Assembly: GCF_000003605.2 (NCBI RefSeq) | Contig: NW_003149270.1 | Span: 151,832 to 215,831, forward strand | DNA length: 64,000 bases | Reading direction: 5' to 3' | Source: Saccoglossus kowalevskii | Lineage: Eukaryota > Hemichordata > Enteropneusta > Harrimaniidae | Shown here: piece after piece, positions 33,201 to 64,000 of the stretch | Layout of the letters: every line of letters begins with the position of its first letter | How positions within the stretch are numbered: position 1 is the first letter of the stretch | The notes under the pieces: model-generated | Told to the model about the DNA's origin: nothing | The model's database searches: none | What the model saw: the letters and a program-made list of their open reading frames with translations, nothing else | Translations under genes and position numbers: made by a program

Positions 33201-36200
33201 ATACTCACAGTCACTCTACTAGTACAGTGACTGTGCTATACTATACTATACTATACTATACTATACTATACTATACTATACTATACTATACTATACTATA
33301 CTATACTATGGTCGGGTGAGGACGTGTTTTCACATCGCTCCGTGGTTTGTGCCACTTCCCCAGCTTTTTGGCGCGTATAGTACTTCAGCGTGTCAGTTTT
33401 GTTTACTACAAACACGTTGCATTTATCATTGGAGTGCTTTCTGTGAGTATTTTGTACTGTCATTTTCGGAATTTAACGTATTTTGNNNNNNNNNNNNNNN
33501 NNNNNNNNNNNNNNNNNNNNNNNNNNNNNNNNNNNCTATACTATACTATACTATACTATACTATACTATACTATACTATACTATACTATACTATACTATA
33601 CTATACTATACTATACTATACTATACTATACTATACTATACTAGTTTCGCTGGTTCCCGGTGTCCTTTGCGAATGGCAAGTAAGACGCAGGTAACTAGTA
33701 ATCGCCATATTGTTCCATTTGGGTCGGTTTTCAGGCCAGAAGGCACGTGACTGAGTGACGTGATTTGAAAACATTCACGAAACTTCGAATAGTTTTTTAT
33801 TCATTCCCGTCATCGTGCTTAGAGTTCCATGTAACCATGTTATTTGGAACAGTGGTAACAAAAACAGGTCGCGTGTTACACCAATCTCCCACAGACAGTT
33901 TTATTTCTAAGAATATACTTTCGTTGTTCTAGCCGCAGGGAACTCTGGGAAGGAGAATGGTGTTACACGTGACACAGGTTATCACTGTGCGTGACCACAC
34001 TACTAACTCGTATGTATAGCAGGTATTCTGTGTATTCAAATATTTGATATCTTACTAAAACTATCTGTTTAGTTTTGCGTTTAGGTCTTCAACCACAGTC
34101 TGATAGAGGTATCAAAATCTAAACTAACTTGTATGTACACGGTAACTGAGCGCCATCGTTTTAAATCGCACTTGATTATACTCGCGCAACGATACTGACA
34201 CAAAGTAATGTAGTTTCACGATGTAATAGTGATATTATTACTGGTTGCTTGGCACCACTTGATTGTCCAGTCACTGAAAAATACTGCATTTCGCTAAATA
34301 TTGGCAGAGATATTGGCTGGTTTGTATCAAGTTTATTTTCAGTGATTTTTGATGATTTTCGCTGAATTTTATTTTCCCCGCCGATTCACCCTTTCCGTGA
34401 AAATAGCGAAAACAAATTCCACGTGAAAATAATTTACTTTTACAGTACATTTTCATTAGGTGGTAACTGGACAGTGCTTCGGGATAACGAACAACATTGT
34501 GCGTGAATCAGCAATATCCAATATTTGTAGGGCATTGTGTAAACAACAACCCATTATGAGTTGTCCATTTTTTGAGATCCTCTGCTTGTGGGCGTTGTCT
34601 ACTTCGTTTGTGCGACATCATTTTATCAGAGTCAGCAAAAATCGCTATGTATACGCGTTCGGCTCTGATTATGTTGTGACATGACCCGACATGGCATCAG
34701 GGCCGAAATCACGCCCACTATCGCCTTCAAAACACTTCCCATTCAAATCATTACATCTCAGGAGTCAATATCTTTTGCAATTCCTGTGCGGAATTGATAA
34801 ACAAATTGTAGGTCCTCGAGAAAATAAATATTATTCTTCGACGCAATTATATGCTTGCCGTGTAAACCAAGTCGACTTCTAACTTTCTTTTTTCTCAATT
34901 TTTAGCTCCGCTGTCAACACAGCGAAGCTGTTCTTATTACTGATTGTCCGTCGTCGTCCGTCCGTGTTTTCAAATTTGATGTGCAAGTACCTTGGATGGT
35001 TCTTTCTCAGATTTGTTCATTTCATGTCAAAATCTTAAATTCTCTATTATTTTTGTCATTTTTGGTAAAAAGTGATATTTTCGACTTCTTGTTAAAAGTC
35101 TGATTGCTTTGATATTACATATATAGGTACTACATGTGGACTTGTCTCAGATTTGTTCATTTCGTGATGATATGACAGGCTGCTTGTTTTTTTATTTTTA
35201 TTTTTTTTTTTGACATTTCGGGGTATTATAATTATTATATAAATACAAGGGGGGTTATGTCCGTCTGCGTATCGCCCAATATTGTGCACATCACTGTCCT
35301 TGCCCCATTGTCAAAAAATAATCATGTCGTCCTTCATTACGAATGAAGTTATATACGCCACAGTCGTCGTGCCCGCCATGTTGAACAAATTTGTAAACAG
35401 ATTTTAGACAATGATAACAAAGGGAATAATCACAAAAATAAATTGCGCACTTACAGAGAACTGAAAACAGACTTTGGCTTTGAAAACTACTTACACGTAG
35501 TCAAAAACACTTATCACAGGTCATCAATGACAAAATTGAGGATTAGTGCTCACAGACTACAAATAGAGATTGGGAGATATAGCAACACAGATATATCTGA
35601 CAGAATATGTCTATGTTGTGTAAATAACGCCGTAGAGGACGAAGAACATTTTTATTTAACATGTGATCTCTACGTGGGAGAAAGAAAAAAAAACTTTATC
35701 AGCTGTTATCACTCCCCGATTTAGCAAACAATAAATAAAAATTAAAATATATTTTAAATAATAAAGATGAAAAAACAATAATACAAATAGCAAAATACAA
35801 TGTACATAGAGAACGGTTTCAAAACAAGAGAGGACAAACTGAAAACATTATAGTCAGCTATCTCAAGATAAGGTCATGTACATGCAATAGTAATCTAAAC
35901 ATTCACCAACACAAATGTGGAAAACAATCCAATTTACTTTACCATTATATATTTTTTTTCTACTTTTATTTGCTAGTTGTTTTATTTTCCTGTGTGTATT
36001 TTTATTCTCACTTTAATTGTTTGTTTGTCTTTATTAGTCCCCGTTCGGACGCAGTCCGAAAACGGGGACTTATGTTTTGCCCTGTGTGCGTCCGTGCGTC
36101 CGTGCGTCCGTGCGTCCGTGCGTCCGTGATCACCTGTATCTCGAACATGCATGGACCGATTAAGTTCAAACTTCACTCATATATCACACCTTATATGGGA

Positions 36201-48200: not shown

Positions 48201-51200
48201 TAGCTGAATGAAATTAATGCCTCCGAATCTTATCAAGACTTAATGGCAATACATCGAGTTTTCGCGACTGGATCGACGAAATAAATACAACTGTGTCTTC
48301 AGTTTTTATTTTACTCTTGGTTCCATTAACTATATCTGTTGATTTGCACGCTTCATTAAGTGGGTTGACAAAACGTCCTGTCTGTGTGAAGTCATTATAC
48401 AGAAGCCTCAGTGTATTAACTTTTTAATGGAAATCCTACAATATAGCGGTACTTATGAACCCCATGTTGAAGATAACTTTCTGTAAAAATATTAATTTAA
48501 ATTCCAATTTCGTTTTTTGCTGAATAATTAACAGACAAATCCAGGTTTAAATAACCTAGTTACATATACTCAAAATATCCAAATAGTGAAATTAAATACC
48601 TGGTTGCAAAATATATAGGAATACATTATATTATCTTTAGAACAGGGAGCTTATCCCTTTCTTGTTTTATGAGTGAAGGGCATCAGGAGAGATGCGTAGT
48701 ATACGCAGGTCTTTATTAGTTAATGTAGTGTTGGCCAAATATTCAATGTATAATATATTCAGGGTTGCCAACATATTATTCACATTCAATGTAGTATGTA
48801 GTTATCAAGCAATAATGCGTATATGTGTATTTTCTGAAATCTCCATATTTATGTGATATTTTGTTCTCCGATATTTCAGACATTCTTACAATACACCTCT
48901 TGTGAAACATCCCGATGTGGAGCTAAGTAAATCACCCCAAATCTCGTTCAGTAACTCCCTACACGTGACAACTCCGAAACAACAATATAAACAGGTAAAT
49001 AATAAATTTGTCATATATCATGAGTTAAGGAACCAATACTCATCGTCGTCACAGAATTCGTCTCATTATTTAGGCGTCTTAAACGAGCGGCGCCGCCAAG
49101 AGTCGTTATAAGCAATGCTTTCAGACATGTCACCCTGCAGGAAAATGTCACAAAACAAAGCATTCTTCACATTTAAGTTATTGGCTTTTCTGACAAATTA
49201 TTATTAAACTAATATATTCTGGTTAAAATTTGTTACATCTGCTGGCTGAAATTGTTTGCAATTAAAACTTTGCAATTTGATTAGAAGATGCTTGCAATCA
49301 AGGGAAATGTCACAAAACAAAGCATTGAAATTGCTCACAATTGAAAACTGATGGTTTCTAATTCTTACTTATGCTCGGTGGAGTTGCTACAAATAGTCAA
49401 AAAACTGATAAAATATTATGTTCATGAGTTTAATATTGCCAGAAATTAACCTACTTTTTAGTCTCCGTTTCGATGAAGTCCAAAAACGATGACTTATGGA
49501 TTATACTAGCCATATCTCACACATGCTCGGCCGATCGATGTCAAACTTCACACATGCATTTGTTTCATAATCCGAATCAACGATGGCCGAACTGGCGGCC
49601 ATTTTGTTTCAAAAAACTGTTGATAGCAGTGGTTAGGGATTTTGATGAATATTGCACAACATTCTATAGTATGATTTGTTAGTCCCCGTTCGGACGAAGT
49701 CCGAAAACGGGGACTATTAATTTGGGTTCGTTCCGTGCGTCCGTCCATCCGTACGTACGTCCGAAGCTATATCTCGGACACCCGTTGACGGATTTCATTC
49801 AAACTTTACATGAAGACAGTACATAATGTCTTACATATGCGCGTCAAGTTACTTTATGATTGGAGAAAAAATTGGCCGACTGGCGGCCATTTTGGATTTG
49901 ACATTTGCTATTTCTGATACCTAAACGTTTCTCGAAGATGACTGGGCCGATTTGGATCAAAGTTGGTATGATGATCATACATATTTGGTTATTGGTGCAC
50001 GTCATACTTTTTCCGTGATTCAAACAAATATGGCCAACTGGCGGCCATTTTCCTTGTCATTAACAATGACTTGTTTTGTTTTTTCTTTCAGTCGAGACAG
50101 TCTGGTTCTCCAAGGAAAATGACAGTTGATAAAGAATACAGTTCTATACAGAGTATAGACAATTCCAACATGGCTATAATCCCTAATTCAAACAAAATTA
50201 CAAATGGAACAATGAATGGATATGCCAAGGTCCATGATGATCAGTCACCAAAACCAAAAGTGCCATTTGAAAGGAAGCCAAAAAAGTATGTGGAAATGCG
50301 TTATAGGGCTACATTAGAAACACAGTCATCATCAAGGTTGCCTCCGCCTTTGCTCAAACAAGGTCCATCTCAGACAAAATCAGAATCTGCATCAACGAAG
50401 ACAGTTTCAGTATCTCATTCACTTGAGCCCCCATTAGATCTAAGTGTACCACTAGACTTATCAGTGAAGAAAAGGACATTTTCAATGCACCATACAACAG
50501 ACTATGACAGACAGTTCACATCTAACTCTCCTGAGAATACATTTCAAAATGGTTATTCATCGAGTGATTTTTCTCAAAGAGTAGGGATACCAAGATCATT
50601 CTTGTCTAGACCACTTGATAACTCTAGGGGATCATCCCCGGCACTCTCACCAGCCCATTCACCGTATCATCACTGTTTGTCTCCTGAAATGAATAGAAAT
50701 TTATCACCACCCTCAATTCCTATTCCTAGAGTTCTAACGCCAACGTCAATATCTGTTAATACTTCGCCAAAGACATGTGAACAATATTCTTCAGCATCGT
50801 CACTGGGGATGGTAAGGAATACGTTTGCTGTGTCTACTAGCGTCAATGGCAAATCTGCTCAGCAGAGACCACTGCCACCACCTAAATATGATAGAAGAAA
50901 TGGATCTACCCCGCCTTACCAGAGTGCAGGTACATCAAAAGCCAACTCGCCTATAAGAATTGCCCGTGTGAACCCCACTGCCGCAAAATCACCTGAAAGG
51001 TCCAGGGCTATCAGCAGCAAATATCCTGTAATTTCAATGTCACAAACAGGACATTTACAGACATTTCTACCCAGTACATCTTCCAATAGTTCATACAGTA
51101 TTCCTCCAAAGATGCCTGACAATGGGAGGAGCCAAAGTCTGTATCCTCAGATGTCCTATGGGTCACCAGTAGGTTATGTAATGGCTGAAAGAGATAGATC

Positions 51201-54200
51201 TCCTAAGCGCCCTCCTTGCAACACTTCACCCATGCATAGACAGACACTGGGGACCAAATCAGTACACCCCACCACCTTCAAGTCAAGAACACATTCTCCA
51301 CATGGAGGTGCTTCTCCAATGGGAATGGTTGAGAACTCCTTTTTAGCTGGTGCTAAGCTAACACAATTATTGAGACCTATAGATGATCAAGAGAAAGCTG
51401 TAGAGGACGCTGTAAATCATCAGCATTGTCATAACCAACCAGATATGCTACATGAAAAAAACATTTCCACCTCTCAGTCATCTCCACCATATTTGATGCC
51501 ATTGGAAATTCATATCCCACATGGGCATGCTGCAAACCTTCAAAAAACTCCACCTCGATTGATAAACGTTTCCAGCAAGAACATGTCACCAGAACAAATT
51601 ATTCATTGTCATGAATCTCAGAGAAACAATCTTTGCACTGTCAATGGCCATTCACCAAGACCTGCTGAACCTAAATCGCCTACAATGCCTGTTCTTACAC
51701 CTCACAACACACAAGCACCTGTACTTCTCTCACCAAGCCAGAACAAGCTTTCCATGTTCTCTTCTATTGACCCTCCAACATTGGATCAAACAAACTCTAA
51801 GGTATTGTATAATGCACTCACACTGCCAATGTATCCCAAAGTTGCCGATGAACAGTCCAGAAATGAATTGTATGATCGTCTGTCACCGTCTTGCAACACC
51901 CCAGTTACTATACCACCTGTTTTGACATCTGATCAGTACAACAGTATTCACAGAGCTCAACAAGAAAAGCAAAGGTTCACACAGATGCCTTATCGAAAAG
52001 ATATGGACAACATGATTAGAAAAGCCTTGATGGCAAGAGTATCAGAGCGTGAAATCCCTCGAAGTCTTTCTCCAACACTCTCACTGAACAGAGTTTCTCC
52101 ACGTGATCCCAGAATGGGGGCTAAACAATATCAACATTTGATAGATCACCTGAATAAAAAAAGTATGGCACATGCCCACAGAACTGGTAGTTCCACTCAT
52201 TCTGCTGGACCACATTCTTCATCTGGCTGGGTGCCAAATCATAGAAAGTCTTCTCCCATATCTGCAATGACAATGCAAAGTAAGCCATTTAAGCGAAATG
52301 TGTGGGAACAATTAGGAGTTGCATGTAGTAGCACAACACCAAAAGAAACTGTCAAACATGCACTAGTTAATGAAATAATAGACTTGACATCTCCAGCTGG
52401 TTCACCAGCTACCCCTGCAGGTTATGAAGAGAATATAACAGATTCTGTCACTGAAATTAATACTGATCAAAATAAGAGTGATGTTGGTTTTGAAAAAAAC
52501 GATGATTTTACAGAATCAAGAGAATGTTCAGCGCGAGCTTCCGAGGAACTTCCACAGTTGATACCAGAATGGTCGTCAATACCGCACACTTCAACTGTCA
52601 TAACAGCAAATACCAAACTAAGTTCATCATGTGTAGTGAAGCTATCCCATGATATTTGCACTCATACTTGCAGTATGACTCCTTCAACAGAAGATTATTG
52701 CACTGTTACTTCTTCTGGTGTTGATGCAATTACAACCACATCTATGAATAGCTCAGAAAGGGCTAGGCAGCACAGACGATCCCTGGAAATAGCGAGGATA
52801 AAAAATTCTGAAGGATATGTTGCTGATAAACCAAAAAAACCAAAGAGTGACGATTTGTACGTTGATTCTTCATTACTTACTAGAGAGGACAGACATATAC
52901 AGGTAAGTTTTTTTATTGAGTACCTGAGAGTCTCGTTGAAATAAAAATGTGTGCTTTCCTTGCATATTTATATATATATATATGTATATTTATTGCTGTT
53001 GGTGGATACACTGGATCAAATGTAACCATATTCAAAACTATCGAACAGAAAGTATGTGCTATAAATATGTACTGTGAACAATTTAAGACAATTAATGAGC
53101 TTAATTTCTATTGTAAAACAGCGTGCTATGATGAGATTCATGGAGCAAGAAAGAGAATTTATAAACCCAACTAGGAGATCCCAATCCTTAGAAGATTCAC
53201 CCACGCAGATGAGACAATGTGTAGAATATGCAACAAAAAAACAGGAAAAAGATAATATTGGCAATTTACATCGAAAATACAAGTATAAGCTGGGGAGACA
53301 TTCTACTCATGAGGACAGTAATGAAGACGGTGGGTGTCTTAAAACAAATTCTTTATATTTTGTTGTTGGCCACATTATATCATTTGTGTTTTATGAACGC
53401 ATTCTCTGTGATATAATGGTTGTTTTGTTACCTTCACACTATTTTAAAGGAACATGTATGATGTCAGTGTTACATAAATTCACATATTTTACCTTGCCTG
53501 TATCATCATAGATGAAGATTTTCTTTGTTGTTATCATTGGCCCCAACATATTTTCTTGTGCTCAAAATAAACTTGGATATTAGCCTCCAAGTTACCAAGG
53601 GTACCAAGTTGGATTTTGTATGTGTTCTATGAATATTTTTCAAGTTATTGGTTAAATACCCTCCAAAATTACCTTTTTCTTCTAGTTACAGTAAAACATT
53701 TTTTTTATCTGATCATCAAATTCGGAAATCTGATCATGCACTATGAAATGTCAACCAAGTTCAATTTTGGTGTGGCCAGCATGGGACAAAATGAAGTCAT
53801 TCATACTGCTGATAATAATAACCAACTTGAGGAGTTTGCTTTCTAAGAGTGCAGTAAACAGATATGTTCTATAAATCAATGCTTATATATACAATACACG
53901 TACGTGTAGTGTTGATTGAGGAACATGATGGGTAGTATTTTTTATTGGTTTTGCATATGCGCAATTCCTGAAGCTATAAAATAGTAATGTAAAAAATCCC
54001 GCACCAGGACTAGGGGTTAAATTATTCTTAAACGTGTATAATTTTGAACATAAATAACGTGTGTGCTTTGGTCATAATGATAATGAATAGGAACCTTTAT
54101 ATTATTAATTTGTGTTATGATGTTGACAATTGTTTTCTTGCTATAAACATGATATCATTCATTGTCACATACATAACACTTGTATATCCATATTAAATGA

Positions 54201-57200
54201 AGAATACTTCGAGACACAGGTGCTGTTATATTCTCCATCACAAACCAAAACTACTATTAATACACACAACAGAATTCCATATGCAACTAGGACTGTGCAT
54301 TGCAATGTCAATACAATGAGAATAATACAGAACATTAATTAATTTTGAAAAGAAAAGATTTGTCATCGTCAGTTTGTATCCATTCGTTTATTTGTTATTT
54401 AATCTAGATTTTTCATGGGCAAGGTTGTAATAGTTGGGCTATGTTTTTTTCCAAACATTTGAATTTTGGAATGTATAAAAATCTTGCTTAAACGCCTCGA
54501 TTCGTTTAACACAGGAATGAGTACAGACAGCTTATGGAAAATGTATACCTTTTATAGTGGATCTAGTTTTTAAAACAATTCATTTCTGAAATCATTCATG
54601 ATGTATGTAAATACATAAAAGTTTGCCTTTGAAAATTGATTTATGAAGTAGAGTTGGTCGTGTAACTAAATATACTCGAAATTCTAATTCGTGTCATCTT
54701 ATATTTTTAGTTATTTTATTTCTAACATGCTAATGCATATTTATATATACTAATTTGCATGACTACAGCTAATTAATAGTTTCTACATTCAAATATTCAC
54801 TGTAACTAAACTATACCTGTTTAGTTGTTATACATATGAAGGCGACTCCCAACATGTCTCTAATTAATTCATACAATGTATAGTATTTAGTTTCGTATTT
54901 CTTTTTGTTGATAATATACCGTTATGTTTTTGGGACATAGAAATGTCTTTCTTTCCAGATGTCACTGTGCAGCATGTTCAGTCTGGCCAACAGAATGTTG
55001 AAGACTTTGTCAGAGAAAAGGTTTATAGTGACTATGATGATGTTGAATCGCCAGATAAAACGGAGCCATCGTCTCCGTCTTCCCTATTATTTTCTCCAAC
55101 ATCGGAACATGGTGATGATACGGAAATCAAGAAAGGTTTGTTACAATCAGTGATCGTTACAATTTCCATAGCTTTCAAGATGCTTTAAATTACTGCAAAG
55201 TATTTTAGCATAATCAATAACAACTGTAGGTTAGTACTGTGTATCCATAGTAACAGGTGCAATGGTCAGTTTTCTAACATACAAGTTCACCCTGCTAACA
55301 ATTTAGTGATAATATTCGCATTTACAAAACCATTGAAGTTAATGCATTTTAATTGAATGAATGGATGAAGAATTATTTTTTCAATATATTTATTGCTCAG
55401 TGTTCTATTTTGCATTATCCACTTTGCATCATTTTCACACAATTATGGAGGTTAAATCGCATTCCTGCATGCATTGCTCGCCTCCTTCAGCACATTAGCT
55501 TTAGTGAATACCCTCCTTGCATGTGAATGCCAGTACATTACGTGCTGTGCTATTCTTCCTTGTACAGGTCAATTCCAAGACTATGTTCCTGTCATTCTTG
55601 AAAAAAGGACCCGCAGTGGCTTGACAGGTAATCATTGCGATCATGGGGAATACTGTTTATAATCATTCTCTTGTTAAATCTGTCATATCAGCGTCTTCGT
55701 CCTTAACTTACGAAACCTTTCCAGATTGTCCATAGAGGGGCGGGAGATACTTGTATGATATAATTCATGATTTCATACATGAGTAATGCGGGGGTTTATT
55801 GACCTCGTAAGCATGCTAATTAAATTAATTACGTAACATACTTTCAGTGCTTCATCTGCTTGCTTGCTTTCTCTGCTCCATTCCATGCAATGTATGTAAC
55901 CTTATATCTGAATGAGGTTATTGAACTTCATTTCTGCATTGCGTTGTGGGAATATAAATGAAGTTGCATTTGCTTATATTATGTCTTGCATTTATTTCAT
56001 CAACATAAATGTTTGGTGATATGGTAGGTTGTTTTCTTGTCATCGTTGATAACAAATTACTGTATTTGTTATGTATCATATTCAACTATTTATTGTTTAT
56101 CAGGTTACAAAATACGAGAACGGAAACCTCTTTTTAATAAGAACGCCAAATATGAGCAAGAGATTGAAAAAGAAGAGCAGAAGAAACTGTTTAGGAAGCG
56201 AACGTTCAGTTTAGCCAGCACAAGTGGTGATGAAGCTTCGCCGCCAAGACGTCGTCGTCGGTCTCTTTCTGAATCAAGTGGTCACATTGTGTGTGGTCGG
56301 GGTCGAGGCCGTGGTCGAGGTCGTGGTCGTGGATACAGACGCGGGAGGGGTCGTGGAATGGGTAGTAGAGGTGGAAGAGGTGCAAGTAGTACCACTCTTG
56401 CTGTCGACAAAGTAAAGCGGAAATACACGTGGAGAGGCCGTGGACGACAAGAAAGCGGACACTGTAGGAGTAGGGGCAGGGGAAGAGGCAGGGGACGAGG
56501 TAGAAGACGTGGTCGCGGCCGCGGCCGTGGCCGTGGCCGAGGCCGTGGCCGTGGCCGTGGAATGAGGCATTTAACTGAAGATAATATCGATATTAAGGAT
56601 GAAATTATTGATCCTTCAGACTTTTTGTTCACAATGGATATCGCATCAGATACAGGAGACATTTTATCAGATGGCATGCCGAGTACATCTGAATCAGAGA
56701 AGTCTATGAGATGCATCATTGATCCATCTAACTATAATAAAATTCGATTTGTATCCGATGGAAGTGCAGGTGATAGCGCCATGGAAACACCAGAAAGAAG
56801 ACGGAAAAGACTATTTGATAAACCTGGAGGGAAAAGAACTTGTAAACGACGTCATCTCGATCTCGATCAAAATATGACCTTTGATGATGTCACTGAGGTA
56901 GAAAACTTTCTTTTTTTTCATTATAGCGATTACAAGAAACACAGAATTCTAAATTATCGTCTTCCATTTTTTGTATTAGCTATTCATATTTATTTATACT
57001 ATGAGGTGCCATAAGCGTACTTCACGTGCATTGGTCACTTTAAAAATGATGAGGGGGCATTATCGCGCGATATGCAATCGGCATTCTCATTCAACCAATA
57101 AAGTTGACAGAGACAGTAGAGTGATGTATATAGAGCGGATCGCCGACTAAATTCAAGGCTATCAGGTGGGCTCATTCAGAGAATTTCCTGCTGCAGAACG

Positions 57201-60200
57201 CCCAGGTGCCACGTGCTGTGAATTCAAAGAAATGACATGCTGAATGTTGAAGGTCACGATTTTATGATTTGCTTTTGGACTCATTAATAATGTATTTGAA
57301 ATAATCATCCCTTCCTTCTATGATTCTAAATATTACTTGACACAGTATATTAGTATTTTTTAATGTCGCGATGTATAACCATGCGCATCCTTTGTCCATA
57401 TCGCTCTGGTAATTCCTTAAAAGTCCATATGTCTCATTTCTAAATTTTAAGTGAAGATGATTTGTTGAGGAAAATACAAAGTAAGGTATTTGACAAAAAA
57501 ACACGTCATGAATGACGGTTAATAGGATGTTTTGCACTTACCGATACTCGTAAGTTGTATGTGCGTGTGCAGTAATGCTCATAACTCTGTGAATATAAAT
57601 GTCACATAATCATTGATATCGATTTCTCAATTTAAGTCAAGTTCTCATTAAGAAGAGATGGCATTATTTTCACTGTTATGACGGGGGTCACATGGTAGTT
57701 TCTTGAACACTCGAAATTCAATTTAGTAGTATTAACCAAGCGAACAGATTTTTGATTTATTGTTAGATTTTAATGATGACTGTAATTATAAGTTTCCAGA
57801 CACTGGCAATGATGGCGTAATTTTGTAAATCACGGGAGCCGCGTTGTTGTATTGGCCCCCCAGAAAATAAGTTGTCATTGAAGTGCGTGTTTATTCATTA
57901 TTGCAATTATCATTATGATTAGTTAAATTTGGATAGGATACGATATTTTATTTGGAACGTACACAAAAACAAGTGAATTCGTTTCGCAGTTTCGGCTGAA
58001 TTTACTAGCGAATTAATACGACACGTATTGTTGTTCAGGATTTCCCATTCACATTACTTCTCGTATATAGCGTAACAAAATCATTGTATACGAATACACG
58101 TGTTTACCGTTATTGAAATTATATGTGGGTATTTTAGATTGACTACGACACGGAGGACTTCGACAAAGAACACGAGGCTGCAGCTGAGGTATACGAGATC
58201 GAAGGGATTGAAATCGAGGGAATCAGTCCAACCAGACCAATGCCACCTGGTAGGTGCTGTTTAGTGTATGATTCACGATTTCTTGCGGTGTAAAACACGT
58301 AGTTGAGCTAATATGTGACATATTTGGTGAGATATATGCCGGATATATGTCCGTAGCTTTCAAAATTTCAACGCAGTAATTCGGATCAATTAAACGTTTG
58401 GTGTACTAGTAAATTAGCGCGTCTACCCTCTTTATTATTTCTGTTATTAAGGGTCACCCATGAGCAGTTCTTTTGAATAATTTTGTTGAAATACAACAGT
58501 TCTTTTGAATATTGTATTGAAATACCACGAATAAATGTTGCATTAGAATAAATTACTATCGCATGCCTATTTCAGAAAATGTCAAAAACACGCTCGTTTT
58601 CCAATGCAACATAACTAAACTAACGTGCATTGATATATTACAGAAATGAAACGTATAATGGTAAATAAAAACTCTGGCGAAACAATGTTACATCGTGCAG
58701 CTAGAGTGGGAAACGAGGTGAGTTGCAATATTATATGAAGATAACAGTGGCGTGAAAAAAAACTTGCTTGCTTGAAGAAAGTCGCCGTGGTCGTGTTGGG
58801 CGGACGTCCTCGAATTTCATGTGAACTGTTTCAACCGGTTTTTTTTACATGCGTTGTATACATAACATGAAACCCTTATCACGTGGCTAAATCAGTTGAC
58901 CGATCAGAATCAAGCCATAATCCACTTTGGGGAGACAAATGAATCATACAATTAACATATAACGAATTGCACAAACTTTGCAACTTTCTAGCTATAAAGT
59001 GTATTTCCACCATGACAGCCGTGGCAGTGATAACATCGTGAATTTAGCAATCGAAAACACACTAACCCAAGTTACCTGCAAAACTCGGCTGTATTTCTGT
59101 AACATTTTCGTTTGGGGAACTTGTCTTTACGTTTTTTAGTTCGGTTTGGAGGACTGTCGCTGGAGACAGGGGTCGGAGTTTACAGAGTAGATAAGGTTCA
59201 CACAGTAAACTTCATGGACGACGGTCACGTACGCTTTATCCGGTCACCTAAACTATTGTCATAAATTTGTCCAACCCGGTGTGTAGTACGCCACCTTGTC
59301 ACTATGATTCGTTAGTCAATAGCTAATCTTTGTTTTGCGAACATAATTGAACACTCGCACCTCGATGGACAATTTCGAGCCCGGTAGTGGCGTCAAAAAT
59401 CGATCACTCAATTTTCTTTGGAAGTTTTTCTTGTGGCATTTCATAGACATTATTCAACGTAAGGCCGCCGAGACCAAATGATGCCCAGCCATATTGATGA
59501 CTAGACAGCCGTAGTTCGAATAAAAAAATACACAAAGGCAAACACAAGTGCTTATTATTTTGCAAAATGTTGCAAATATTAAGTTCTTAACCAATCCCGT
59601 CGTGTGATAAGACAGATAATGAACTCGTTCGGTAGATTATGTATCACTCACTCAGCCTGTTTGCCTCAACTGGAATGTTGGTTATTTTGAATAACAATTA
59701 GCAAAGTCTGGGACGTTCAAACGCCGACTGAAAGAGAAAAAAACCTAGTGTCGCCGTGAAGTGTACATATGCCACATTTGATAACAAATCCGACAATTGC
59801 GAAAAGAAGAAACGTCCTTTGCCTTACAAGTACTAGTATAATGAAACTACCAAGAATGACTTTTGACACTCGTGGTGTTCGATTTCTCTATAAACACTCC
59901 AACGTCACGTATTCCTAATCAATATGGCCGCTGCCGACCCCCACCCCTAGTGGATGAGCTCCCTTGACGTGACTTTGTAATGGCGTATGTTAATTAGTGG
60001 AAATTTTCTGCTGTTTTCAGGAGATCGCGTTGTATTGCATAGAGAATGGCGTCGTGAACATCGATGTCAAGGACAACGCTGGCTATACACCGCTGCACGA
60101 GTGCTGTGTGCGTGGAAGACTACAAATCGCTAAACATTTACTCAAATATGGTGCTAATGTAAACTGTAGCTCTCTGGATGGAACTCGGTAAGTGTTACAG

Positions 60201-62668
60201 TTCTTCAGCTGTATTGTGGGTATCTGATGGTGAAATGTCACACTACATCATTATCATTACCGTGGATTCATCTATATACTCACTATACAATGGTATGCAT
60301 TCATTACGTTTCCCAGATTAAATAAATAATAAAATTCATAACATGAGGTGATACTTTACCTGAAATTCAATATCAAATTGTATCTTTAGATTGTTTTTAT
60401 AAATCATCGAAATCTGGCATTCCGGAACCGGATCTCGGCTGTTTACAGATACATTTTGTCAAACTTGGTACATACATTGGCCCTTGATCTAAGTCATTTT
60501 GTTTTCTAGATTGGATTCTAAATAACCGATTGGCGGTCTTGACGGCCTTTGGCCTCTGACGAGCTTTGACTGCTCATGTTCAAATTTTATATATTTATTA
60601 TACATCGTGTCATAGATAAACAGATGTATTGGTTTGACGATCTAATTCAAAATGGCCAACCGGTGGCCATTTTGTTTTAATTAATGCTGTTTCAAAGATA
60701 TATCTCTCAATATGGACAAGTACTCTTTTTACGATCAGATGCAAGATGACTGAATGTCAATCATCTTAATGTTAAAAAAATCATCATAATCAAGCATCAG
60801 CTTAAAGTTCTGGATCCATATCTCTATACTACTATAAACAAAACTATACGTCTTAAATTTGATAACTAACTGGAACTGTGTCATGCATGATTTGTTTAAA
60901 CTATGTGTGAAATGTGTTCACCCTTTTCACTCCTCCACACTGAAAAGGTAGTCAACAAAGGAAATTTCAACGCTTTTCTGAGAGACAGTATCCTAGTGCA
61001 CACACCATTGTCAACGCCCTCTATCCTCTCCGCATTACATATGTAGTAAAAATATAAGCATAATCACGATGTGTTTTGACTGTTTTTAGACCCATCCACG
61101 ACGCCGTAGAGAACGACCATGCTGAAGTGGTGAGGCTGTTACTTTCGTACGGTGCCGACCCACTATTAGCTACATATGCTGGAAGAACACCCTTGAAAAT
61201 TGCACGGAGCAAAAAGATGGCATCCTTTTTGAAAGGTATGAGAGCTGTTTTTGCCCCAAATAATAACCATTTACAAAGTTGATGCGTTTGGAGAATATGA
61301 TTTGTTGTGTTTGTCGCATGTAATAAGCGATGTAATGTCCAATCATGACCTGGATTCTAAATAACGATGACTTTTTTCTCTCTCAATATATAGACTATTT
61401 AATTGATTTGAATGGAAGTATACCCGACGACGATGACAGTTCCGGTGAGGACGTTTATCATGAATGGCAGTTCATAGGATCAAATGATGTATTCGGTGAG
61501 TTATTTTGAAACACCACCGCATTAAGATACGAGTCTTGTCAGTGAAACTCAATACTCCCAATTACGTAACATGTCTATATGTCCATTGGGCAAGATACCT
61601 CACAATTACAAGGATTTCATCGAGGGGCCACACTCCGGGAACGAAATACCATGCACCCCTTTCATAAACTATAAAATACCATTTTTAAGAGAAATGTCGT
61701 CTACTGATTGACATAGCGTTCCACTAAACATACACTTACATCCCACTGACAATACGACTACGACAATATTTTAGCACGATCAGCCACAGTCCCTCTATAG
61801 AGATAGAGGGACTGTGGATCAACTATTATTTATTTAGTAAATTGTATTAGATCATTTAAAACGACAGCGTGAATATTTGGATAATTCGTGGAGTGATTCC
61901 TCCGGCTGCAACATTTATGCACTGCCCGAGGAAGAATAGTGTTATTGTTGAGACGCTTTTCATGACATGCCGTAATTAAATTACATAAATGTGAATGGAT
62001 AATGAAATATTATCGTAGTAGCTAGGCGTTAGTTGAGTGGCGTATAGCGAGGGAAATGCCATATATATTTTCGGCTTCCTCGGTGAAATATCCCTCCTAT
62101 TACTAATATACTTGATCACTGTCATAAGTGTTAAAAGCTATTTACTCGGCGTTCGGGCTCGGGTTCTTCAGTATTTTCGCGTGTGTGTGTGCGTGTGTGC
62201 GCGCAATACATAATGAATAAAACAGTTAACGGTTTCCTGGCACACGAGATATTCTGTTTGATGACGTCAGTAACTTGTTGGCTTGTTCCCAAGTCAGTAC
62301 AGGGTGACACACCTTATACACACACAACTCATGCATACCCAAATTGGCTACGATATTTTCAGTATTTCAAAACATGAATAGCTACGAACTAGAATAAACA
62401 AAAAGGTGGATGTGTTGACACAAATATCACGTGACTGGAGTATGCAAATGTATAAGTCATTATTTTCTTGCTTCCGTTTCTATATCTGTCCTATCAGTTG
62501 TACCTAATATGACTTGAATGGCTATGTTTATTCTCTCCATGTTACAGATGACCCTGATGAACTCGGGTTCGATTTGTTTGAAAATTTACCCGATGATTCT
62601 GAGCCGGAGATAGAACCTCTATTAGAACTTAGTGACAGACCACATATACAAACATATCATCTTTTCGG
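6143..62668 (+). CDS. BCOR: BCL6 corepressor (BCOR/BCORL1-type), 15 exons, 3' end beyond window
   Basis: Joined exons: 6143-6240, 6388-6463, 47282-47424, 48880-48994, 50092-52902, 53122-53329, 54959-55135, 55568-55627, 56104-56897, 58138-58249, 58644-58717, 60021-60187, 61090-61235, 61394-61495 and 62548-62668. All borders are GT-AG and the frame stays open through every junction (1734 codons plus 2 nt). Seen: two PLDLS CtBP motifs (residues 258-268), IIDLT SUMO-interacting motif (906-910), a RAMMRF block (~1082-1094), an RG-rich tract (~1294-1382), [13 protein letters not shown] (~1469-1481), three ankyrin repeats plus a partial fourth (1543-1672) and an acidic linker. The ankyrin block (for example DAVENDH and LLLSYGADP) matches vertebrate BCOR closely. 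Known for the family: a nuclear corepressor that scaffolds the non-canonical Polycomb complex PRC1.1 through a C-terminal PUFD domain bound to PCGF1. Inferred: this is a single pro-orthologue of BCOR and BCORL1. The PUFD exons are missing only because the window ends. Confidence 0.93.
6388..6463 (+). CDS. BCOR: BCOR exon 2
   Basis: Acceptor after ccgtag; donor CAG|gtttgt, weaker than the others. Completes Leu33 and adds 25 Ser/Asp/Glu-rich codons, with no stop in frame, ending in phase 0. No domain is recognisable. It is followed by the ~40.8 kb intron 2. Confidence 0.72.
6464..9284. other. Intron 2 segment, no feature beyond simple repeats
   Basis: Unique-looking AT-rich sequence. Seen: a run of about 11 G near 7551-7561 and a short (ATCG)n run near 7647-7661. 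No coding or mobile element is recognised. Confidence 0.5.
9285..10480. repeat. 57-bp tandem array, about 21 copies
   Basis: Consensus built on catagttacctttgtgaag, tatatgtgcacac and atgacgcacgagtacatgg; the period is about 57 bp, with a few variant units. Because 57 is divisible by three and the unit lacks stops in several frames on both strands, long spurious open frames run through it. Degenerate units continue to about 10690. Read as protein it would be a 19-residue repeat ([19 protein letters not shown]), but there is no start, splice or composition support for coding. Confidence 0.9.
10481..11917. other. Intron 2 segment after the 57-bp array
   Basis: First about 200 bp are decayed repeat units; the remainder is AT-rich sequence with a poly(T) run near 11245-11257. 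No gene or element seen. Confidence 0.5.
11918..12685. other. Assembly gap, 768 N
   Basis: Unresolved bases. Open frames drawn across it are meaningless. Confidence 0.99.
12686..15403. other. Intron 2 segment, nothing recognised
   Basis: AT-rich unique-looking DNA with several poly(A)/poly(T) runs. Short open frames only, none with protein-like features. Confidence 0.5.
15404..15501. mobile_element. TTTTCGC-family palindromic MITE, partial copy
   Basis: Carries the gtgaaaatgaattccacaca...aattccagctaaaaatgaagtattttatagtact right half of the family seen whole at 31162-31373. The left half is missing. Confidence 0.65.
15585..16335. repeat. AT-rich 61-bp array built from about 24-bp units
   Basis: Core unit tccatgaatacgtattacta, alternating with a tccatgaataagtattacta variant and a tatcattatagtatgta spacer, giving a 61-bp higher period to about 15940. 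It then decays into looser units around acgagtacgtat up to about 16335. The cacgagtac motif is shared with the 57-bp array, so the two satellites may be distantly related. Confidence 0.85.
16336..18174. other. Intron 2 segment with a G-quadruplex motif
   Basis: No gene recognised. Positions 17413-17431 read four CCCC tracts separated by single A, so the - strand has four GGGG tracts with one-base loops, next to an 11-T run (17400-17410). Confidence 0.55.
18175..18235. repeat. Short tandem of cgagttacgaa-like units
   Basis: Four imperfect copies of a unit of about 15 bp, cgagttacgaaaacat. Confidence 0.7.
18260..18850. mobile_element. AGCTCCGCT hairpin repeat family, copy 1
   Basis: Starts with the hairpin agctccgctttcgactttgt|cgagcggagct, then gattgtccgtcgtcgtccgt, then repeated blocks of ctctcagatttgttcattt and tttttggtaaaaagtgatat, and ends at gcggagctatctcagccgag followed by aggctgcttgtt. 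A shorter second copy is at 34911-35190. There is no coding capacity, so it is a non-autonomous interspersed element of unknown class. Confidence 0.75.
18900..20081. other. Intron 2 segment with (TTAA)n microsatellite
   Basis: A perfect attaattaattaattaatta-type run lies near 18916-18945. The rest is not recognised. Confidence 0.5.
20082..20199. mobile_element. TTAA-flanked MITE, family B
   Basis: TTAA at both ends. The core gatatgggttttatgcgacg then tatacaacgcatgtaaa then gtttgtttacgag matches the copy at 38860-38982 (gatatgggattcatagagac, tatacaacgcgtgtaaa) and a one-sided copy near 20784-20894. Confidence 0.65.
20784..20894. mobile_element. TTAA MITE family B, one-sided copy
   Basis: Left TTAA plus agcgaagcagtcgtcgcg, then a gtttacacgaagttcgaaag and gcgcgctgcacgccgggag end like other members. 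The right TTAA is not found. Confidence 0.5.
20895..21344. other. Intron 2 segment, nothing recognised
   Basis: Short AT-rich stretch leading into the 48-bp array. Confidence 0.5.
21345..22925. repeat. 48-bp tandem array with 663-bp higher-order repeat
   Basis: Monomer built on gaggcggtatgggatcgcgg then agaatatacaaatt then acgacatggaatac; the period is 48 bp (16 codons), hence spurious frames on both strands. Sequence at about 21453-21640 recurs nearly exactly at about 22116-22303, an offset of 663 bp. The second higher-order copy lacks one 48-bp monomer. A run of three near-identical monomers (22752-22870) suggests recent local amplification. Confidence 0.9.
22926..28598. other. Intron 2 segment, no supported gene
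   Basis: About 5.7 kb of AT-rich DNA. The 111-codon frame at 23464-23799 has no splice or family support. A TGACGTCA palindrome (CRE-like) is near 24608. A GGTTCAAGTCC box near 25460 resembles a tRNA B box but lacks a foldable tRNA around it. Confidence 0.45.
28599..28820. mobile_element. TTTTCGC-family palindromic MITE
   Basis: Inverted ends: tactttattttagctggaat on the left and aattccaagtgaaaataaag on the right, with an internal aattttcgctgaat and gaaattaattcc. Full-length but diverged copy. Confidence 0.75.
28821..31161. other. Intron 2 segment, nothing recognised
   Basis: Short open frames only (the longest is 100 codons at 29868-30170, no family). Confidence 0.45.
31162..31373. mobile_element. 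TTTTCGC-family palindromic MITE, best copy
   Basis: Terminal inverted repeat of about 30 bp: tactgtagaatactttattt then tcgcttggaatt at the left, aattccagcgaaaataaagt then attccacagta at the right. No coding capacity; 212 bp. Confidence 0.8.
31806..33044. mobile_element. TTAA-flanked MITE carrying a 1.05-kb insert
   Basis: Left TTAA plus AGCGGGAGGGTCGTCACC and right TTAA plus the inverted AGCGGGGTCTTCACC. Sequence to 31966 matches the 164-bp element at 3070 (in reverse), and the last about 35 bp match its other end. The 1054 bp between (31967-33020) are extra and bounded by the 11-mer ATCTGACGCAT at 31956-31966 and 33010-33020. Inside lie a 16-bp perfect palindrome (31992-32007) and a 10-bp-stem hairpin (32488-32521). 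Confidence 0.65.
33206..33235. repeat. Hairpin, 10-bp perfect stem
   Basis: CACAGTCACT at 33206-33215 and its complement AGTGACTGTG at 33226-33235, directly abutting the CTATA repeat. Confidence 0.8.
33236..33309. repeat. (CTATA)n microsatellite, left part
   Basis: Perfect pentanucleotide repeat, about 15 copies. Confidence 0.95.
33486..33535. other. Assembly gap, 50 N
   Basis: A round-number run of N, likely of unknown true size, falling exactly at the start of the second CTATA run. Confidence 0.97.
33536..33642. repeat. (CTATA)n microsatellite, right part
   Basis: About 21 perfect copies after the gap. True length unknown. Confidence 0.95.
34272..34447. mobile_element. TTTTCGC-family palindromic MITE, diverged copy
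   Basis: cactgaaaaatactgcattt then cgctaaat at the left; gaaaacaaattccacgtgaa then aataatttac and acagta at the right. Confidence 0.6.
34448..34910. other. Intron 2 segment, nothing recognised
   Basis: No repeat or coding signal seen. Confidence 0.45.
34911..35190. mobile_element. AGCTCCGCT hairpin repeat family, copy 2
   Basis: Same order of blocks as 18260-18850 (agctccgctgt, gattgtccgtcgtcgtccgt, tcagatttgttcatttcatg, tttttggtaaaaagtgatat, aggctgcttgttttttt) but shorter by about half. Confidence 0.75.
35350..36850 (+). mobile_element. LINE (non-LTR retrotransposon) 3' end, with a nested hairpin element
   Basis: The frame at about 35370-35724 encodes [20 protein letters not shown] and then [36 protein letters not shown] and CDLY. 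This LR..AH.L.IE.GRY ... C..C ... EDE.HF...C..Y pattern is the C-terminal zinc-binding tail of many non-LTR reverse transcriptase polyproteins. Coding continues in another frame after a shift near 35690 ([20 protein letters not shown]), so the copy is dead as well as 5'-truncated. The 3' UTR runs to 36035, is split by a hairpin element (36036-36774), and resumes to end in aataaagataattattatta, a simple-repeat tail. The clade is not certain. Confidence 0.8.
36036..36774. mobile_element. AGTCCCCG hairpin element, copy 1
   Basis: Begins with the 35-nt hairpin agtccccgttcggac|gcagtccgaaaacggggact (36036-36070) and a gtgcgtccgtgcgtccgtgc minisatellite. It continues with repeated blocks around gcggccattttg, atgcatggatggattttgtt and ttaagttcaaacttcac, and ends in tgacaatgacttgtt. 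No coding capacity. It is inserted in the LINE 3' UTR. Confidence 0.8.
36851..38859. other. Intron 2 segment, no gene
   Basis: Mostly unrecognised. CAGTCCCTCTAT at 37624-37635 is a third copy of half the hairpin at 61784. A small direct duplication (tttattgcaaaat with ttctgggtattt) sits at about 38768-38860. Confidence 0.45.
38860..38982. mobile_element. TTAA-flanked MITE, family B, 123 bp
   Basis: TTAA at both borders. The left end has agtcgtcgtgccgcg and the right end has gcgcgacgaccatccccc before TTAA. The core matches 20082-20199. Confidence 0.7.
38983..40528. other. Intron 2 segment, nothing recognised
   Basis: A short (TA)n run near 39489-39502. No gene or element seen. Confidence 0.45.
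40529..40636. mobile_element. TTTTCGC-family MITE, decayed copy
   Basis: Inverted ttactgtaaatggattaatg and cattaaaataacaacagtac ends with tttcgcaatt inside. Weaker match than the other copies. Confidence 0.45.
41281..41353. repeat. AT-rich long hairpin
   Basis: Arms of about 31 nt with few mismatches (taattaaactcaattaaaac / gtttaattgagttaattaaa), loop of about 10 nt. Would extrude as a cruciform or fold as RNA. Confidence 0.75.
41354..47281. other. Last part of intron 2, no supported gene
   Basis: Nothing recognised as coding. A 20-bp perfect palindrome, catggaaggtaccttccatg, is at 45909-45928, and tandem gtatgaccg-poor AT runs occur. A gttcgagcccct box on the - strand near 45215 lacks a tRNA fold. 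Confidence 0.45.
47282..47424 (+). CDS. BCOR: BCOR exon 3
   Basis: Starts in phase 0 after a pyrimidine-rich acceptor (tttctgtacag) and ends in phase 2 at a gtagga donor. Codes for residues 59-105 and the start of Arg106 (begins [15 protein letters not shown]). No domain is recognised, and it lies in the disordered N-terminal part. The frame is open only in the phase demanded by exons 2 and 4, which supports the call. Confidence 0.78.
47425..48879 (+). other. BCOR: BCOR intron 3
   Basis: 1455 bp, AT-rich. No element or exon seen. Confidence 0.7.
48880..48994 (+). CDS. BCOR: BCOR exon 4
   Basis: Acceptor gatatttcag, donor gtaaat. Completes Arg106 and runs to Gln144 in phase 0 (begins [19 protein letters not shown]). 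Low complexity, predicted disordered, no known domain. It joins in frame to the giant exon 5. Confidence 0.8.
48995..50091 (+). other. BCOR: BCOR intron 4, largely repeat-derived
   Basis: The second half (49456-50075) is made of two AGTCCCCG-family elements. The first 460 bp are unique apart from a duplicated atgtcacaaaacaaagcatt (49146-49165 and 49309-49328). Confidence 0.75.
49456..50075. mobile_element. AGTCCCCG hairpin elements, two copies end to end
   Basis: A decayed copy (49456-49680; gtctccgtttcgatgaagtc start and ggcggccattttgtttc) is followed by a better one (49681-50075) with the 35-nt hairpin at 49681-49715, gtgcgtccgtcc repeats, two ggcggccatttt blocks and the ttaacaatgacttgtt end. 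The 3' end stops about 16 bp before exon 5. Confidence 0.8.
50092..52902 (+). CDS. BCOR: BCOR giant exon 5: CtBP motifs, SIM, disordered region
   Basis: 2811 bp (937 codons), phase 0 at both ends, residues 145-1081. Ser/Pro-rich and probably disordered. PLDLS appears twice in tandem (50431-50445 and 50449-50463), the PxDLS signature bound by CtBP; vertebrate BCOR has one PLDLS. IIDLT (52375-52389) is a canonical SUMO-interacting core. SSSGWVPN around Trp857 loosely resembles the BCL6-binding peptide of human BCOR. The C-terminal segment ([23 protein letters not shown]) aligns with human NSAGYVGDRF..TELYADSSQLSRE. Human BCOR also carries most of its N-terminal half in one huge exon, so the architecture agrees. 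Confidence 0.95.
53122..53329 (+). CDS. BCOR: BCOR exon 6 (RAMMRF block)
   Basis: Begins [13 protein letters not shown] directly after the acceptor ttgtaaaacag; human BCOR has RAMMRFSELEMKERE at the equivalent place. Residues 1082-1150, then one base of the next codon before gtgggt. The rest is Gln/Lys/Glu-rich and unassigned. The block's function is not known to me, but its conservation fixes both the gene identity and the splice site. Confidence 0.9.
53330..54958 (+). other. BCOR: BCOR intron 6
   Basis: 1629 bp. Open frames are short and unsupported. No repeat family recognised. Confidence 0.7.
54959..55135 (+). CDS. BCOR: BCOR exon 7
   Basis: 177 bp, phase 1 at both ends, so it could be skipped without a frameshift. 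Acceptor ctttctttccag, donor gtttgt. Codes for residues 1151-1209 ([20 protein letters not shown], then an acidic Ser/Pro stretch). No named domain. Confidence 0.85.
55136..55567 (+). other. BCOR: BCOR intron 7
   Basis: 432 bp, nothing recognised. Confidence 0.75.
55568..55627 (+). CDS. BCOR: BCOR exon 8 (60 bp)
   Basis: Small exon, phase 1 at both ends, acceptor cttccttgtacag, donor gtaatc. Codes for [19 protein letters not shown] after a split Gly. Both neighbours are phase 1 and the exon length is divisible by three, so it could be an optional cassette. No domain is recognised. Confidence 0.8.
55628..56103 (+). other. BCOR: BCOR intron 8
   Basis: 476 bp, nothing recognised. Confidence 0.75.
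56104..56897 (+). CDS. BCOR: BCOR exon 9: RG-rich tract and conserved basic block
   Basis: 794 bp, residues 1230-1494. In order: a Lys/Glu-rich start ([13 protein letters not shown]), an [11 protein letters not shown] basic/Ser patch, an Arg-Gly repeat tract (56295-56561, residues ~1294-1382) in two blocks split by a short Lys/Trp segment, acidic stretches, and [20 protein letters not shown] near residues 1463-1482. The last element aligns with human BCOR EKPSGKRLCKTKHL, which anchors the exon in the family. The RG tract is absent from human BCOR as I recall it. The basic runs probably act as nuclear localisation signals. The DNA of the RG tract is a GC-rich cgtggc-type minisatellite, which explains its expansion. 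Confidence 0.93.
56295..56561 (+). repeat. BCOR: GC-rich coding minisatellite (RG tract)
   Basis: Degenerate ggtcgt/ggccgt hexamers in two blocks inside exon 9, coding GR dipeptides on + and Pro-Arg on -. Much more GC-rich than the surrounding DNA. Confidence 0.9.
56898..58137 (+). other. BCOR: BCOR intron 9
   Basis: 1240 bp, AT-rich, no element recognised. Confidence 0.75.
58138..58249 (+). CDS. BCOR: BCOR exon 10 (acidic linker before ankyrins)
   Basis: Phase 0 to phase 1. Codes for an acidic stretch ([17 protein letters not shown]) ending in SPTRPMPP. Human BCOR has SRPMPPE just before its ankyrin repeats, so the end of this exon is clearly homologous. Donor gtaggt. Confidence 0.92.
58250..58643 (+). 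other. BCOR: BCOR intron 10
   Basis: 394 bp. A small tandem duplication of a cagttcttttgaat / gaaatac unit lies near 58463-58528. Confidence 0.75.
58644..58717 (+). CDS. BCOR: BCOR exon 11 (ankyrin repeat 1, first half)
   Basis: Codes for [20 protein letters not shown] and RVGNE; human has [25 protein letters not shown]. Residues 1532-1556. The TMLHRAA core is the ankyrin signature. Donor gtgagt, phase 0. Confidence 0.95.
58718..60020 (+). other. BCOR: BCOR intron 11
   Basis: 1303 bp, splits ankyrin repeat 1. Nothing else recognised. Confidence 0.8.
60021..60187 (+). CDS. BCOR: BCOR exon 12 (ankyrin repeats 1-2)
   Basis: Residues 1557-1612. Second half of ankyrin 1 ([20 protein letters not shown]) and the whole of ankyrin 2 ([20 protein letters not shown] then LKYGANVNC). 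Human BCOR reads [28 protein letters not shown] here. Strong donor gtaagt, phase 2. Confidence 0.96.
60188..61089 (+). other. BCOR: BCOR intron 12 with a decayed AGTCCCCG-family fragment
   Basis: Positions about 60415-60700 contain attccggaaccggatctcgg, gtcaaacttggtacatacat and ccggtggccattttgtttta, the internal blocks of the hairpin element at 36036, without its 5' hairpin. Confidence 0.65.
61090..61235 (+). CDS. BCOR: BCOR exon 13 (ankyrin repeat 3 and partial 4)
   Basis: Residues 1613-1660. [20 protein letters not shown] then [18 protein letters not shown]. It is almost identical to the human stretch ([20 protein letters not shown] and GADPTLATYSGRT), the most conserved part of the window. 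Donor gtatga, phase 1. Confidence 0.96.
61394..61495 (+). CDS. BCOR: BCOR exon 14 (end of ankyrin block, linker)
   Basis: Residues 1661-1694. [20 protein letters not shown] then [14 protein letters not shown]. Human has [20 protein letters not shown], so the linker between ankyrins and PUFD is conserved in layout. Donor gtgagt, phase 1. Confidence 0.93.
61496..62547 (+). other. BCOR: BCOR intron 14
   Basis: 1052 bp. Contains the 15-bp-stem hairpin (61784-61817) and a 28-nt alternating purine-pyrimidine run (62178-62205, cgcgtgtgtg type). Confidence 0.75.
61784..61817. repeat. Perfect hairpin, 15-bp stem
   Basis: CCACAGTCCCTCTAT, a 4-nt loop, then its exact complement. Half-copies of the stem stand at 4806-4819 and 37624-37635, so this looks like two abutting ends of a repeat family. 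Confidence 0.8.
62548..62668 (+). CDS. BCOR: BCOR exon 15 (linker, start of PUFD)
   Basis: Residues 1695-1734 plus two bases. [20 protein letters not shown] then an acidic run and HIQTYHLF. Human BCOR has DDESGYDVL and ends the linker with LLPCYNIQV, the first PUFD strand, so TYHLF should be the PUFD start. Donor gtaagt, phase 2. The following exon is outside the window. Confidence 0.92.
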
Positions 62669-63280
62669 GTAAGTCGTTTTTCAATATCCCAAGTTTCACT
62701 TTTACAAGTTTTACTACGAGGGTCGCTGTGTAAGTATATTTATCTCAGTGGTGTTATTATTTACTGCATGCAAATATGGTCATAATTAATTATATCTTCT
62801 CATCAGTGATGATACATTGAACATTGTAGTCAGTATTTGAATTTGTAAAACCAAATTGCACTTTTAATTGACGTCTAATTTTAAGAAATCCAATTTGATC
62901 AGAAAAGTTCAGTGACCAGGTTTGGTGTCTGAAATCTAATCTACGTTTAAATAACATATGTTTGTATATATTCATTTTTCCAAAAATAACGAGTGAAATT
63001 TCGATGGTGGATGATTATGTACCGGTATATGTACAAATATCCTTGAAACTAAAACGTGTGCCCAGAAAGGCTTACAATCGCATGCGCAGCGACCCCACCC
63101 ACTAATATCTACTATGGAAGTACTTCCTGTTTTCCACATAACCATGAATATTACCTATCTGGAATAATATTCATGGATAACCAAGATGGTTTTATTTTTC
63201 TGACCTAAACCTGAATTTAATATAAAAAGCAAATGCCAGCACAATGCTATTATTCGTTTGCAAGGGTTTACTAAACGAAA
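62669..63280 (+). other. BCOR: BCOR intron 15, first part
   Basis: Nothing recognised before the tandem array. Confidence 0.6.
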
Positions 63281-64000
63281 CATAATATCTGATCGTAAAG
63301 GTATAGTATAATAAACAAAACATAATATCTGATCGTAAGGGTATAACAAAAAAAAACATAATATCTGATCGTAAGGGTATAATAAACAGAATATAATATG
63401 CGATCGTAAAGATGCAATAAACAAAACGTATCAAATCGTAAGGATACAATAAAAAAAACATAATATCTGGTCTTAAGGGTATAATAAACAATACATGATA
63501 TCTGATCGTAATGGCATAATATACAAAATGCAATATCTGATCGTAAAGGTATAATAAACAAAACACAATATCTGATCATAGGGGTATATTAAACAAAACA
63601 CAATATCTGATCGTACGGGTATAATAAACAAAACATAATATCTGATCGTAAGGGTATAATAAACAATACATGATATTTAATCGCAAGGGTATAATAAACA
63701 ACAATATCTGGTCGTAAGGGTGTAATAAACAAAACATAATATCTGATCGTAAAGGTATAATAAACAAAACACAATATCTGATCATAGGGGTATATTAAAC
63801 AAAATGCAATATCTGATCGTAAGGGTATAATAAACAAAATGCAACATCTGATCGTAAGGGTAAAATAAACAAAACATAATATCTGATCGTTATGGTATAA
63901 TAAACAAAACATAATATCTGATTGTAATGGCATAATAAACAAAATGCAATATCTGATCGTAAGGGTATAATAAAGAAAACATAATATCTGATCGTAAGGG
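63281..64000. repeat. 35-bp tandem array, runs off the window
   Basis: Unit acataatatctgatcgtaag then ggtataataaacaaa, about 20 copies with point changes and occasional length variants. Open frames in all three - strand phases arise because the unit has no stop on that strand. Confidence 0.9.

Follow-up and report, generated by a model that had tools for sequence, protein, structure and literature searches.

The stretch analysed here, a window of 64,000 nucleotides from Saccoglossus kowalevskii, carries on its plus strand a gene of the BCOR/BCORL1 type in which positions 56295-56561 encode, in frame, an 89-residue stretch rich in arginine and glycine (model residues 1236-1324 after splicing). 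We tentatively propose that this gene is a co-orthologue of BCOR and BCORL1, encoding a PCGF1-binding subunit of PRC1.1, and that its GRG tract is genuine, has been kept at the protein level and would make a nucleic-acid contact tuned by methylation. With this tract, the BCOR-type protein is most suitably regarded as a new form of a known protein. No report of one is found among the titles and abstract openings of the open-access matches listed; the literature matches listed contain no paper that connects BCOR with arginine methylation or an RG tract, and none of relevance on invertebrate BCOR.

The host gene was modeled from 13 exons within the window, their borders picked by eye, which join in one stop-free frame with AG and GT at each border (table 1). 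A 14th exon past the window end keeps the frame and completes a model of 1784 residues with a terminal stop, a length that starts at the first model exon and not at an assigned start codon; the in-window part comprises 1676 aa. The tract lies wholly inside exon 7, which is 794 nt long, and not in exon 9, where the initial annotation had placed it. The same annotation had described about 90 RG residues in frame and in two blocks, and this description is exact in its coordinates, with the frame open across the exon and the 14-exon model. All three minus-strand frames are likewise open over the tract, with PR and HG repeats among them, because of its repeat structure.

Table 1. Features of the BCOR/BCORL1-type gene and its RG tract (window coordinates; model residues where given)
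Feature	Position	Strand	Details
Two PLDLS (CtBP-type PXDLS) motifs	50431-50463	+	residues 200-204 and 206-210; motif scan, coordinates from exon table
Exon 3 (large)	50092-52902	+	
Exon 7	56104-56897	+	acceptor ATCAG, donor GAG/gtagaa
RG block A	56295-56381	+	residues 1236-1264, 11 RG/RGG units
Spacer between blocks A and B	56382-56432	+	17 residues
RG block B	56433-56561	+	residues 1282-1324
R/G-only run of block B	56472-56561	+	30 residues
Candidate alternative intron	56500-56619	+	120 nt, in frame; donor-like GAG/GTAGAA, weak acceptor-like end
Weak PF15808 (Pfam BCOR) match	56787-56897	+	residues 1400-1437, last residue in exon 8
Exons 9-11, ankyrin repeats	58644-58717, 60021-60187, 61090-61235	+	
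Exon 13	62548-62668	+	end encodes PUFD start
Exon 14	64207-64531 (window-equivalent)		remainder of PUFD

The domains encoded at the end of the gene identify it as BCOR/BCORL1-type. A query of exons 12-14 matched the PUFD family (PF16553) with an E value of 1.2e-11 and 45.1 bits against a cut-off of 29.5, and three stretches of ankyrin repeats were found upstream of it (PF00023, E 2.9e-20). A PUFD search of the 572,110,611-base assembly (4830 contigs, 2 candidates scored) returned a single match, 249 nt long and beginning 211 nt beyond the window end. Matches to PF15808, the Pfam BCOR family, remained under its cut-off of 27 bits, both on window pieces (E 0.0042 and 0.0019; 15.5-18.9 bits) and on two tract-free queries (E 0.0029 and 0.021). 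The best of these stretches fall in profile positions 147-184 of 219, about 75 residues after the tract. PF15808 was absent from the matches to the whole 1676-aa model at E values up to 1, and an exon-by-exon search of the genome found nothing up to the same E value, not even at this locus, and therefore says nothing on paralogues. Since the segment upstream of the tract produced weak Pfam matches to other families only, the tract cannot be placed inside the PF15808 profile.

When the start of the PUFD was compared with BCORL1, it scored 34 against a best of 29 among 300 shuffled proteins; with BCOR it scored 21, shuffles reaching up to 33, and is not significant alone. A PDB search with the exon 12-13 piece found no match up to an E value of 10, and BCOR and BCORL1 were absent from the best 60 of 442 matches to the region after the tract, these 60 being other ankyrin-repeat proteins. 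The two PLDLS motifs in exon 3 are of the PXDLS form, which in BCORL1 is described as CtBP-type (PMC8005212). The gene had initially been called a BCOR orthologue. Its BCOR-type character is made firmer by the PUFD and ankyrin repeats, with PF15808 below its cut-off, and because only one PUFD match was found in the assembly the gene looks like a co-orthologue of both BCOR and BCORL1 rather than of BCOR by itself, an assignment made from domains. It shares with human BCOR and BCORL1 the order of PXDLS motif (known from BCORL1), ankyrin repeats and C-terminal PUFD, possibly with the BCOR non-ankyrin region, only weakly matched here, between motif and repeats; it differs in having an RG tract of 89 residues ahead of the PF15808 match. 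Human BCOR is not known to have such an RG tract. This agrees with the main text of a survey of human GAR motifs, in which the word BCOR occurs 0 times (PMC9957100).

The 89 residues of the tract include 33 arginines and 31 glycines, arranged as 27 RG and 22 GRG with a single RGG, so that of the RG/RGG character first ascribed to it the RG part is borne out and the RGG part hardly so. Three residues are aromatic (two tyrosines and one tryptophan) and none is phenylalanine. Block B opens with 2 units, followed by an 8-residue break and then by 14 units in the 30-residue R/G-only run. Counted with gaps of up to 5 residues, an approximation of the published motif finder, the two motifs hold 11 and 14 units, each with more than the 10 RG/RGG repeats per motif taken here as the mark of RG/GAR-motif proteins. 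Outside the tract, which is counted for this purpose as 88 aa with 26 RG, only 2 RG occur in 1588 residues of the 1676-aa in-window model. In 2000 residue shuffles of the protein the longest R/G-only run was at most 8, compared with 30 observed, and the maximum RG count per 90 residues, in windows sampled at every fifth start, was at most 5, compared with 27 observed. The tract has a net charge of about +34. Per 30 residues the charge is +8 to +12 over residues 1221-1310 and then +4, passing further downstream through -8 (1341-1370), 0 and +7 to -12 (1431-1460), and an intramolecular contact of the tract with the acidic stretches is possible.

Searching the PDB with the tract yielded 7 distinct sequences at E up to 10, all of them weak matches and most of them GRG-type tracts, comprising S10 proteins (E 0.0011 and 0.44), C protein (E 0.0045), a GR20 dipeptide (E 0.011), yeast SNF2 (E 0.013) and SmD1 sequences (E 0.15 and 0.27); Pfam returned 0 families for the tract alone. 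GRG is reported to be preferred by PRMT5, and a GRGRGR stretch of SmD1 has been built in the PRMT5 active site (PMC11847536). The tract shares its (GR)n composition with the SmD1 tail, a PRMT5 substrate, in addition to the weak match, but the latter is a short C-terminal tail on an Sm fold in snRNPs and belongs to no chromatin protein. MBD2, likewise a repressor acting on chromatin, also contains an uninterrupted GR run, its printed human motif having 12 RG and 2 RGG (PMC9957100), and methylation of its RG region by PRMT1 and PRMT5 is described as lowering its affinity for NuRD and methylated DNA (PMC4880565). In contrast, MBD2 is an unrelated methyl-CpG reader in NuRD with an N-terminal tract, whereas the tract found here is central, longer (27 RG) and part of a PRC1.1-type protein. 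ZC3H4, which alone among human proteins is said to have two RG motifs with >10 repeats each (PMC9957100), resembles our protein in its two long RG motifs (by the approximate unit count) and differs in being a CCCH zinc-finger protein with RG repeats interrupted by serine.

By analogy with these proteins, the tract would most likely be an SmD1/MBD2-like PRMT substrate that tunes the nucleic-acid or chromatin contact of PRC1.1, and RNA or G-quadruplex binding, methylation by PRMTs and condensation are reasonable expectations for it. A genome search for the PRMT5 domain (PF05185) gave 0 matches with 1 candidate scored, which does not mean absence because this intron-rich genome was read exon by exon, but which lends the proposal no support. 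The genome search for RAWUL, the PCGF/RING-type partner fold, gave 3 matches.

The tract is encoded by 13 different RG hexamers over its 27 units. In a neutral-decay test, codon changes relative to the nearest perfect hexamer array were compared with 5000 neutral trials. The 30-residue run has 21 base differences from that array, which alter 14 codons synonymously and 1 codon non-synonymously, against a neutral mean of 12.3 for the latter. With interruptions included, block A has 11 synonymous and 6 non-synonymous codons (neutral mean of non-synonymous codons 14.2) and block B 16 and 12 (24.7); for each of the three, 0/5000 trials had as few non-synonymous codons. A simpler neutral test kept the 30-residue run R/G-only in 0/20000 trials, and the 13-residue run at 56295-56333 had a neutral probability of 0.011 of remaining so; as in the test above, these values apply to a region chosen for its RG richness, and they presuppose independent units, a condition violated when units copy one another by gene conversion or slippage. 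Because there are 13 hexamers, and fewer amino-acid changes than neutral decay of a hexamer array would leave, the coding sequence favors a role of the tract as protein rather than a newly expanded repeat, and the same codon data make a recent minisatellite origin appear less probable, at least when the tract is taken as a whole. The whole tract lacks the near-identical units and the equal silent and amino-acid-changing variability of a minisatellite; the part of block B at 56508-56560 comes closer and looks like a younger expansion. We read the tract as an older one kept as protein, of which one part may have been refreshed by slippage. A serious if doubtful alternative is that slippage expanded a GRG-coding hexamer within a linker, presumably disordered, that separates conserved blocks, and that the repeat is translated without any particular role. 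This would accord with the TRF period-6 arrays at 56293-56332 and 56508-56560 (the latter with a score of 78), with the several large minisatellites of the window, with the position of the tract outside the matched Pfam BCOR stretch, the ankyrin repeats and the PUFD, and with a human GAR-motif survey that leaves BCOR unnamed in its main text (PMC9957100). It is opposed by the 13 hexamer types, by non-synonymous codon counts below the neutral ones in both blocks, and by genome searches with tract DNA and tract protein, which found no other match (1 and 2 candidates scored), although the DNA search skips simple repeats and both are weak for them.

Three further explanations concern how the tract is expressed or what it does. 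Alternative splicing might remove it partly or wholly, as an exitron, leaving it in only some isoforms. The best internal donor-like site, the 9-mer GAGGTAGAA at 56500, is identical to the real donor of exon 7 (56898) and scores 7.1, within the 7.0-12.4 of the gene's own donors; its use together with an acceptor-like site at 56620 would take out 120 nt without a frameshift, and a second donor-like site at 56371 (score 5.6) joined to the same acceptor would take out 249 nt, also in frame. The best internal acceptor, however, scores 6.5, under all 13 of the gene's own acceptors (8.3-14.1), in a comparison that favors the own sites because these 13 exons also served to train the scoring matrix, and the 120-nt event would spare block A and part of block B. 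We consider such splicing quite unlikely, and constant inclusion of the tract more likely on the splice-site scores. That the tract serves mainly to target the protein to the nucleus or nucleolus, or to retain it there, appears very unlikely. Its high positive charge and the RRRRR stretch just upstream at 56247-56261 would suit that role, and RG domains are reported to shape nucleolar sub-compartments in worms (PMC9633708), but the nucleolar RG motif described there is rich in phenylalanine, which the tract lacks, and the RG repeats tested in worms were not needed for accumulation in the nucleolus (PMC9633708). We give hardly any credence to the idea that RNA is the main level at which the tract works, with G-quadruplexes formed by its G-rich mRNA and bound by the protein in an autoregulatory loop, as has been proposed for RGG proteins. 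The G4Hunter score reaches 2.08 at 56470, exon 7 holds five two-tier G-run matches and a link between RGG coding and G-quadruplexes is reported (PMC11789052), but no canonical three-tier G-quadruplex is present in the exon and 317 of 1000 synonymous recodings score equally high, so that the encoded amino acids by themselves account for the G-richness. A G-quadruplex as a selected feature is unsupported by these recodings, and the G-richness is an ordinary outcome of arginine-glycine coding, in line with the reported link (PMC11789052).

According to the reading that we prefer, in which a co-orthologue of BCOR and BCORL1 has kept its GRG tract at the protein level, the gene product would serve PRC1.1, a variant Polycomb complex, as the corepressor subunit that binds PCGF1. 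The middle part of the protein, probably disordered, would when expressed present the GRG-type tract, and the positive charge of the latter could make multivalent contacts with nascent RNA, DNA or both, beside the chromatin-modifying module. Arginine methylation of the PRMT5/PRMT1 type would tune this nucleic-acid contact, as for the SmD1 tail and the MBD2 RG region, with a possible effect on repression. A bolder and, in our estimation, unlikely extension is a lineage-specific PRC1.1 with a methylation-switched, RNA- or DNA-binding BCOR tract, by which the complex, recruited to CpG islands through other subunits, would be held or released by nascent RNA and PRMT activity, or gathered into condensates, vertebrate BCOR having lost the tract or never had it. 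A subunit of the BCOR type that brings a long GRG tract of its own would constitute a natural variant for an RNA- or methylation-dependent PRC1.1 tether; if the tract is lineage-specific and dispensable, it would be an ordinary low-complexity expansion.

Scans of the window with Rfam at gathering scores and with ARAGORN under the bacterial code returned 0 hits each. An IMG/VR search for relatives found 6 stretches fitting a pattern, with 0 confirmed. A 125-residue open frame on the plus strand (35347-35721) resembles the tail of a retrotransposon protein, with a cysteine-containing end; no Pfam family matched it up to an E value of 0.1. The stretch at 49434-50091 resembles a dispersed element, with 'ctggcggccatttt' occurring three times by eye; it lies immediately ahead of the exon 3 acceptor and may itself provide that site. 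Large minisatellites, with approximate periods in bases given in parentheses, occupy 9385-10459 (57), 15585-16020 (24/61), 21347-22982 (48) and 63262-64000 (35); the last accounts for a large part of the intron that precedes the PUFD exon, continuing beyond the window end. Perfect arrays of the pentamer CTATA are found at 33236-33309 (14.8 copies) and 33536-33643 (21.6 copies).
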